Assembly: GCA_902619595.1 (NCBI GenBank)
Contig: CACNFE010000009.1
Coordinates: 1 to 54,452 of the forward strand
DNA from: an uncultured Pelagibacteraceae bacterium
Lineage (GTDB): Bacteria > Pseudomonadota > Alphaproteobacteria > Pelagibacterales > Pelagibacteraceae
Direction of reading: 5' to 3'
DNA: 54,452 nucleotides
Below, in pieces: positions 2 through 1,370 of this stretch (position 1 is the stretch's first letter; each line of letters opens with the position of its first letter). Both the position numbers and the translations under genes were made by a program. The notes under the pieces are model-generated. The model made no database searches. It saw only the letters and a program-made list of their open reading frames with translations, and was not told the DNA's origin.

Positions 2-406
2 AATGTTGTACCTCAATCAGGTAATGCAAAATTTAATGTTAGATTTAACACTAAATATAAATCATCTTCTTTGAAGAAAAAATTAAATCAAATAATCAGT
101 TCAGTAGCTAAAAAAGAGAAATGTCGAGTAAAAATAGAATATAGAGTTAGTGGGGAGGCTTTTTATACTCAGCCAAATAAAAATATCTTAATGGTAAAAA
201 AAATTGTCAAAAAAGTAACTGGTAATTCTCCAAAATTAAATTGTAGAGGAGGCACTAGTGATAGTCGTTTTCTTGGTAAAATACCTAGATTAGAATTGGG
301 CTTGAGAAATAAAACTATACATCAGATTGATGAAAAAACTTCTGTGTCAGATTTAAAAAAATTAACAAGAATATATAATCAAATTTTACAAAATTATTTT
401 AATTGA
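2..406 (+). CDS. dapE: Succinyl-diaminopimelate desuccinylase, C-terminal part (cut by window edge)
   Basis: The open frame runs in from the left edge (reading phase begins at base 2) and stops with TGA at 404-406, so only about the last 134 codons are present. The visible part carries the GGTSDSRF segment and the closing HQIDEKTSVSDLKKL block typical of DapE, an M20-family zinc peptidase that releases succinate from N-succinyl-LL-diaminopimelate in the cytoplasm on the way to DAP and lysine. The start and the first metal ligands lie outside the window. Its stop overlaps the TTG start of the next gene (TTGA). A related M20 deacylase is the main alternative, but the C-terminal block favours DapE. 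lysA, the last step of the same pathway, is at the other end of the window. Confidence 0.85.
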   Translation, partial: NVVPQSGNAKFNVRFNTKYKSSSLKKKLNQIISSVAKKEKCRVKIEYRVSGEAFYTQPNKNILMVKKIVKKVTGNSPKLNCRGGTSDSRFLGKIPRLELGLRNKTIHQIDEKTSVSDLKKLTRIYNQILQNYFN

Positions 407-1370
407 GCACTGCAATTATAACTTCAGATTCATCAATAAACCATTTAACAGGTGATGGTCATCCAGAAAGACCTGAAAGAGTTGTTGCAATTACTGAAAA
501 ATTGAAAAAAAGAAATGATTTAATTTGGGATAAACCTAAAAAATTTGATTTAGATATTTTAAAGAAAGTACATGACAAAAAGTATATTGATATGGTTCAA
601 AAGAGCTTTCCAAAAGAAGGATTTAAATTCTTAGATGGAGATACTGTAATTTCACCAGGTAGTGAAAAAGCAACAAGGGATGCTGTAGGTTCAATTTTAA
701 ATGCAATAGATTCTGTCGAACAAAAAAAATATAAAAACGCTTTTTGCGTCGTAAGACCGCCTGGGGACCAGTGCCCTCTTTAACTAGGGGGCACTGGTCT
801 CATTTTGGACATCACGCAGAAAAAGATAAAGCGATGGGTTTTTGCATATACAATAATGTAGCTATTGGTGCACACTATCTCATTGACAAATATAAGTATA
901 AAAAAATAGCAATACTTGATCCAGATGTGCATCATTTCAATGGCACGAGTGATATTTTTTACGATAATGAAAAAGTTTTATGTTTATCAACTCATCAATA
1001 TCCATTTTATCCTGGAACTGGTAGTGAACAAGAAAAAGGAAATCATGACAATATTTTTAATGTACCTTTGCCCGCTGGTACTGGCTCTCGGGAATATTTT
1101 AACGCCTTTGATAGAGTTTTAGATAAATTGATAAAATTTCAACCAGAATTTTTGCTTATAAGCATGGGTTTTGATGCAGAACAGCGAGACCCCCTCGCAA
1201 ATTTTAAATTATTACCAAGAGATTTTTATGAAATTACTAAAAGAGCTATTTTAGCAACCAACGAATTTACCAAAGGAAGAGTTGTATCTATTTTAGAGGG
1301 TGGTTATGATTTAAATGCCTTAGCTGAAAGTTCTAATGAACATGTTAACGCACTCTTAGAATTTAGTTGA
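403..1370 (+). pseudogene. Histone deacetylase-family (acetoin utilization/acetylpolyamine amidohydrolase-like) protein, interrupted by a 44-bp insertion
   Basis: The first part (403-783, TTG start overlapping the dapE stop) encodes the N-terminal arginase-like deacetylase segment with GHPERPERV and ends in VRPPG. The second part continues in another frame from about 807 with HHAEKDKAMGFC to 1370. Removing 44 bases between the halves restores VRPPG-HHAEKD, the conserved active-site junction of this zinc hydrolase family, and gives about 307 codons, a normal size. Zn-ligand positions survive (DVH and the D of GFD), as does the GGY near the end. However, the usual HHGNGT reads HHFNGT and the usual GFDAH reads GFDAE, which suggests relaxed constraint. 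As written, translation stops at TAA 781-783. It may be a true pseudogene, an assembly artefact, or a gene rescued by ribosome bypassing of the insert. Confidence 0.8.
763..806 (+). repeat. 44-bp GC-rich hairpin insertion inside the deacetylase gene
   Basis: Comparison with the family motif RPPGHH shows 44 extra bases here; boundaries are ambiguous by two bases because GG occurs at both ends. The insert has about 55% G+C in a roughly 30% G+C surrounding. It contains a perfect 11-bp inverted repeat, GACCAGTGCCC at 766-776 against GGGCACTGGTC at 789-799, with a 12-base loop holding the in-frame TAA (781-783). The stem begins immediately after the Gly codon GGG at 763-765, and the correct reading frame resumes after another Gly codon, GGA at 807-809. 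I see no second copy in the window and no clear target-site duplication beyond GG. Confidence 0.85.

Follow-up and report, generated by a model that had tools for sequence, protein, structure and literature searches.

The deacetylase (HDAC) family gene at the start of the 54,452-nucleotide stretch of Pelagibacteraceae DNA analysed here (the window), which belongs to a genome (G000) of 29 contigs, 1.0 Mb and approximately 85% completeness, is split at RPPG|HHAEK by a 44-nt insert (763-809), and the question that this locus raises is how a normal protein could be made across it. The earlier note had described 44 extra bases that break the RPPGHH motif between two glycine codons and contain an in-frame TAA, and re-examination of the sequence bore out both this description and its coordinates (Table 1). 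The perfect 11-bp stem that it had reported (766-776/789-799) is indeed present, but RNA folding indicates that its true extent is greater, namely a 16-bp hairpin with its loop at 780-785, the first paired base being the second G of the take-off codon GGG. The region 750-820 has a folding energy of -35 kcal/mol versus a mean of -19.5 for shuffled sequences (z -6.0), with none of 200 shuffles being as good. In the upstream frame the stop is the sixth codon after the take-off codon. As the two halves of the gene match the Hist_deacetyl profile (298 positions) in segments that meet at position 111, no residues are missing at the join. The gene directly 3' of the deacetylase codes for a SET-domain protein (PF00856; 1401-1877, + strand).

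Table 1. Coordinates of the interrupted deacetylase gene and its insert; the terms take-off, gap and landing follow the proposed bypass reading.
Feature	Position	Strand	Remarks
Deacetylase, upstream coding part with the take-off codon at its end	403..765	+	Hist_deacetyl profile 1-111; ORF 403-783
Take-off codon GGG, Gly of RPPG	763..765	+	
Gap of 41 nt, skipped in the proposed reading	766..806	+	Equal length in five other genomes
Hairpin, 5' arm	764..779	+	RNA folding
Hairpin, 3' arm	786..801	+	RNA folding
TAA of the upstream frame, inside the loop	781..783	+	
A/T-rich linker preceding the landing triplet	802..806	+	
Landing triplet GGA	807..809	+	
Deacetylase, downstream coding part; reading would resume at CAT 810	807..1370	+	Hist_deacetyl profile 111-298; purifying selection

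Five further members of the genus (G067, G017, G009, G218 and G434) have an insert of the window's type at the identical codon, and all six copies show a 41-nt gap between a GGG take-off codon and a GGA landing triplet; G071 carries a different hairpin at the same codon, with a 43-nt gap. The downstream deacetylase protein was matched in 188 of 201 genomes, and among the matches listed four, namely that of the window itself and those in G067, G017 and G009, extend upstream across the insert and contain stops within it. At the DNA level 23 of the 201 genomes gave matches at E 0.01, of which those in G067, G017 and G009 include the insert and the others cover coding flank only. An RNA model of four deacetylase insert copies with their flanks (R1) matched 7 of 399 genus genomes, the new ones being G218, G071 (with its different hairpin) and G158, where the match is not in a deacetylase but in infA; a search with the model R3 brought in the copy of G434. 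All 26 other deacetylase loci examined are uninterrupted at the insert codon. In a tree of 33 deacetylases the presence of the element needs four changes, three of them forced by well-supported branches, and G017 and G009 cluster with an intact relative; therefore either the codon was a repeated target of insertion, or elements were gained and later lost. As a separate observation, the deacetylases of G000, G218 and G434 have HHFNG near the metal site and the other carriers compared have HHGNG; a KKFK in G017 is probably a coincidence.

In an alignment of four copies the 14 inner stem pairs are formed throughout, and the two outermost pairs are unformed in some copies; 8 of the 16 pairs are invariant, 3 vary on one side, 4 are changed on both sides and one departs by unpaired cells only. 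The covariation score was reached by 2 of 500 shuffles, and the statistical case from these four sequences is modest, since 157 of 500 had at least as many pairs with both sides changed. The recurrence of the insert at one codon is beyond chance, and a chance hairpin is ruled out by the shuffle folding taken together with the recurrence in relatives and the matches in other genes.

The homologous inserts, on whose existence the earlier note had made its proposal depend, are thus present both in other genomes and in other genes. In total, 32 inserts were identified at 12 codon positions in 7 gene families (infA, thioredoxin, ribosomal protein S1, gcrA, exonuclease I, a phage-type exonuclease and the deacetylases) of 23 Pelagibacteraceae genomes, the deacetylase position being counted once with G071 included, and 24 carrier names standing for 23 genomes, G513 and AG-894-B07 being identical. 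Five of the 12 positions are represented by a single element. The figure of 32 is a minimum because stricter filters were applied whenever a scan covered more than 40 genomes, and because sites 3-5 of trxA were missed by all three RNA models and found by reading upstream of the known copies; the inserts that this upstream reading of thioredoxin revealed are at W|AEWC, WC|GPC and WCG|PCK.

Searching 399 genus genomes with a model of the hairpin alone (R2, at E 0.3) gave matches in 15, each of them an insert inside a gene and in the sense direction. A pattern scan of 84,980 species recovered 12 stretches, 11 of them from Pelagibacteraceae (4 of these 11 records being labelled MAG) and each inside infA or thioredoxin (trxA); the twelfth, from Anaerolineaceae, was not accepted on inspection of its frames. 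The isolate codes of carriers (AG- and AH- series) are presumably those of single-cell genomes. Searches with R3 uncovered S1 inserts in G434 and G513 and an exonuclease I insert in G459, and over 297 genomes of the order (E 0.1) matched 9, of which 7 belong to the window's genus and carry elements; the matches in other genera (G533 and G586) are not element-like. A search of 398 genomes of the phylum at E 0.01 gave matches in 10 genomes other than G000, none of which reached 30 bits, and inspection by eye of the frames around the 14 loci fetched recovered no convincing split gene. A relaxed pattern search returned known copies only. Repeats of the GGGGGCTGGCCCCC type in other Proteobacteria (L262-L269, L272-L275) match the hairpin model weakly and are apparently a separate kind of repeat; weak matches in G071:C19, G017:C2, G135 and G063 have the appearance of terminators or ordinary coding sequence.

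As in the case of the mitochondrial byp elements, several genes of one genome may carry such frame-breaking blocks, as seen in G434 and AG-390-G09 (G158). The former has three elements in 1.13 Mb (rpsA, gcrA and HDAC), the gcrA insert having been found by comparison with the ORFs of G158 and G000. The latter has two infA inserts with 9 residues between them and a third insert in the phage-type exonuclease. A hairpin scan of 551 kb of this genome printed 12 candidates, including two elements, the third element being missed by the filter. Comparison of all its genes with the ORFs of G434 and G000 yielded the infA interruption only; two 13-nt candidates (G434:C2, G000:C4) also emerged, and a 17-nt candidate proved to be a poorly conserved N-terminus. 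In 0.45 Mb of G000 that was compared the only element is the window's own. The insert-bearing phage-type exonuclease of AG-390-G09 (L102, G158:C1:55115-55156; L071) lies approximately 4.5 kb from infA and an adjoining tRNA gene. Thioredoxin is a hotspot for inserts, with five positions and four genomes having two inserts in one gene (L155, L165, L161, L150). The identities of the interrupted genes were established by profile matches for thioredoxin (PF00085), S1 (PF00575) and GcrA (PF07750, via the intact G158 homologue); the downstream part of exonuclease I matches positions 105-310 of NF008746 (E 9.1e-20, which is below the model's whole-protein cut-off) and its upstream part matches positions 4-103 weakly, and the phage-type exonuclease matches phrog_298.

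The elements share a common layout: a take-off codon that is usually GGG, a hairpin at or just after it that is very stable in most, a stop or GC-rich codon usually next, a short linker and a landing triplet. The gaps range from 25 to 50 nt, with 29 of 32 falling between 40 and 50 nt and the remaining three measuring 25, 26 and 35. As in T4 gene 60, the gap is non-coding and skipping it restores a normal protein, the join peptide of such a skipped reading being WSPAIFMGWSNIGFDDEMIR in exonuclease I of G219/G079 and GNACVSR in S1 of G434/G513. The insert length modulo 3 is 2 in 19 elements, 1 in 10 and 0 in 3, and copies at a single site differ out of frame (trxA1 43/45/46, exonuclease I 46/47/48, trxA3 25/26). 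In 30 of 32 elements the upstream frame meets a stop within the gap; a stop immediately follows the take-off codon in 3, and in 18 it is the second codon along. The codon following take-off is GGC in 16, CGC in 5, GAC and CGG in 3 each, TAG in 2, and TGA, TTT and AGT in one each. A stem-loop stands at the take-off codon, again as in gene 60; 30 of the 32 hairpins fold at -21.9 to -35.4 kcal/mol, and two trxA3 copies are weak (-8.9 and -10.8). Many elements have the end motifs GGCTAG...CTAGTC in common.

The take-off and landing triplets pair as GGG>GGA in 20 elements, GGG>GGT in 3, AGG>AGA, CGG>TGA and TGG>TGC in 2 each, and CGG>AGA, GGA>GGT and TGT>TTT in one each. They encode the same amino acid in 27 of 32 cases; where they code differently it is the take-off codon that supplies the conserved residue (Arg of KLRK, Trp of DFW, Cys of WCGPC). 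Two of three letters are the same in 29 of 32 and one letter in 3, the latter being three of the five infA1 copies (two CGG>TGA and one CGG>AGA).

On the strength of these sequences it is highly probable that normal protein is made by skipping the inserts, by whatever means, and it is likely that the insert in the window belongs to a family of translational bypass elements carried by SAR11 chromosomes. The proposal of the earlier note, a candidate bypass element on a bacterial chromosome, thereby stands as the best-supported reading, and the feature is a multi-gene family that lay beyond that note's view. In such a mechanism the ribosome would stall with the peptidyl-tRNA on the take-off codon and the hairpin blocking the A site; the tRNA would release the codon, the mRNA would move by roughly 40-50 nt, and the tRNA would settle on the landing triplet, with reading resuming at the next codon. 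The elements might be mobile or gained repeatedly, given that unrelated genes are hit, end motifs are common to them and their presence varies among relatives. The codons CGC and CGG, which occur at 0.21 and 0.23 per 1000 codons in G434 (GGG at 3.9), stand directly after take-off in 8 of 32 elements, and as a sign of bypass this is only suggestive, since codons of this kind are to be expected in a GC-rich stem. In the part of G434 that was scanned (1.13 Mb) the single Gly tRNA recovered has the anticodon UCC, which would read GGG, GGA and perhaps GGT. A tRNA with UCG would read CGG, and could hold TGA via a G-U pair and AGA only with a mismatch. Against bypass, no pair of triplets is identical, and six landings would be unable to pair normally with the take-off tRNA (CGG>TGA in 2, CGG>AGA in 1, TGG>TGC in 2, TGT>TTT in 1). 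Furthermore, a duplication of two letters upon insertion could produce much of the triplet match; the caution of the earlier note, that the two letters in common could stem from the insertion itself, is a fair one.

The main rival is a splicing-like reaction that would remove the hairpin from the mRNA, after which the joined message would be translated. Such an excision accounts equally well for the restored proteins and the non-triplet lengths, and needs no pairing of the take-off and landing triplets. Bypass is preferred because the start of the hairpin coincides with a codon boundary or falls just beyond it, and because the triplets on either side of the gap are alike in codon register, both of which excision leaves unexplained. 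This likeness in register is itself partly expected, both from a two-letter duplication upon insertion and from the bias in the position of GG, since 58.7% of its occurrences in G434 occupy codon positions 1-2. At the gathering score the Rfam matches in the window are tRNAs only, with no intron, and a search of six carrier loci at E 0.1 recovered no intron either, the matches being tRNAs and a sub-threshold one to the S15 leader over the S1 insert of L179 (24.9 bits versus a cut-off of 39.5). We know of no bacterial machinery for excising hairpins of this kind, and on balance consider excision unlikely.

Alternatively, the genes might be decaying and the insertions in them inert or harmful, or each gene might now yield two separate pieces. 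Each carrier taken alone could be read in this way, and only a few members of the genus are carriers, as the counts for R2 given above attest. However, the HDAC parts downstream of the insert are under purifying selection: in each of the four copies compared one ORF runs on from the landing codon for 187-188 codons, and in 8 pairs dN/dS is 0.056-0.166 downstream and 0.081-0.172 upstream, so that the downstream decay which would have told against a working gene is absent on both counts. The value is 0.052 for downstream S1 and 0.055 for exonuclease I of G079/G459 (the other two pairs being saturated); the short thioredoxin pieces give 0.35, the upstream ones being untrustworthy as they include part of an upstream insert, and the infA pieces are very short. 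Position and stem are also conserved, and together with the downstream selection this leads us to reject the decaying gene that the earlier note had entertained. The infA gene, which is essential in Escherichia coli, provides a further argument against decay. In all five infA carriers searched, out of eight (G053, G105, G274, G223 and G158), the IF-1 family is matched solely by the two pieces flanking the insert, in genomes that are 52-88% complete, such that a second infA could be unseen; intact infA genes are present in six genomes bearing elements elsewhere. The 9-residue middle piece of the AG-390-G09 infA is too short to be a separate product. Decay or split products are hence a distinctly improbable explanation.

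Still less probable is programmed frameshifting or stop read-through across the gap, by which extra residues would be added. The landing frame is open through the gap in 7 of 32 elements, including the window copy, where the argument against frameshifting therefore rests on the relatives. As a general explanation it fails, since this frame is closed by a stop in the other 25 of 32, among them 4 of the 5 other copies of the same HDAC insert, and the lengths at one site vary out of frame. An assembly or amplification artefact, which the earlier note had also raised and to which the uncultured, fragmented nature of all carrier assemblies might point, is scarcely credible because separate assemblies show the insert at one and the same codon, where its sequence has diverged and compensatory changes have arisen, and the matches of the 84,980-species scan are concentrated in one family.

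Returning to bypass, several known systems bear comparison with the SAR11 elements. Intergenic palindromic repeats (REP/MITE-like) are likewise short GC-rich hairpins with a patchy distribution among relatives, but lie mostly between genes, whereas the SAR11 elements are inside genes at codon boundaries with selection acting downstream. In T4 gene 60, according to the available portions of the sources (PMC5009743, PMC11194080), out-of-frame ORFs are separated by 47 nt between two GGA codons, with a take-off hairpin and stops in the gap; the available text of PMC8211752 also treats gene 60 and the Magnusiomyces byps. To the extent of these accounts, the SAR11 ORFs are similarly out of frame across a non-coding gap of comparable length, with mostly glycine take-off and landing codons, a take-off hairpin and stops in the gap. 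The SAR11 elements differ in being present as many copies in several bacterial chromosomal genes, in having a hairpin that occupies most of the gap, and in that the take-off and landing triplets are never identical and a stop rarely (3/32) follows take-off directly; because identical codons and such a stop were looked for and are not the rule here, they are not classed as gene 60-type. The byps of Magnusiomyces capitatus occupy 81 positions in 12 of 15 genes, with take-off and landing codons that are not always perfectly matched, according to the accessible part of PMC5009743, and are thought to derive from mobile GC clusters according to that of PMC4464245. As far as these sources describe them, they resemble the SAR11 elements in being short blocks at many positions and genes, with restoration of frame and an imperfect take-off/landing match; the SAR11 elements differ in their bacterial chromosome and ribosome and in their few copies per genome (as in the 1.13 Mb of G434). 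The adhesin gene of Prevotella loescheii, known to us by a one-sentence description in PMC5009743, is likewise a bacterial chromosomal gene with a proposed hop, of 29 nt, reported as a single case and not followed up. By their anatomy, the SAR11 elements probably work like gene 60 and the byps.

A viral source was also considered. A pattern scan of viral contigs returned 7 stretches with 9 matches, all judged by eye to be chance; a second pattern scan of viral contigs gave no match, and a 16-base scan gave 3 stretches. Among phage records there was one marginal match, to the coding flank, and no viral relative of the deacetylase was found. The phage-type exonuclease of the AG-390-G09 kind is uninterrupted in 64 of 65 viral relatives, and in the remaining one the match stops before the site.

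In the sources consulted, efficient bypassing is well documented only for one phage gene and the mitochondria of a few yeasts. The literature searched, mostly without subscription papers and preprints, contained no report of bypassing in SAR11. More tentatively, and as a possibility that we take seriously without favouring it, these could be mobile, intron-like bypass elements in conserved motifs of essential genes, in organisms whose ribosomes, or some further factor, are generally competent for bypass and whose IF1 and S1 are made by jumping. A natural series of chromosomal elements, accompanied by close relatives that are free of the insert and by sister copies that vary in length, would allow comparative tests of how take-off and landing are governed. 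If the bypass reading is true, gene calling splits or misses working genes, some of them probably essential, in very abundant marine bacteria, and the family would provide a bacterial setting for studying the spread of bypass elements.
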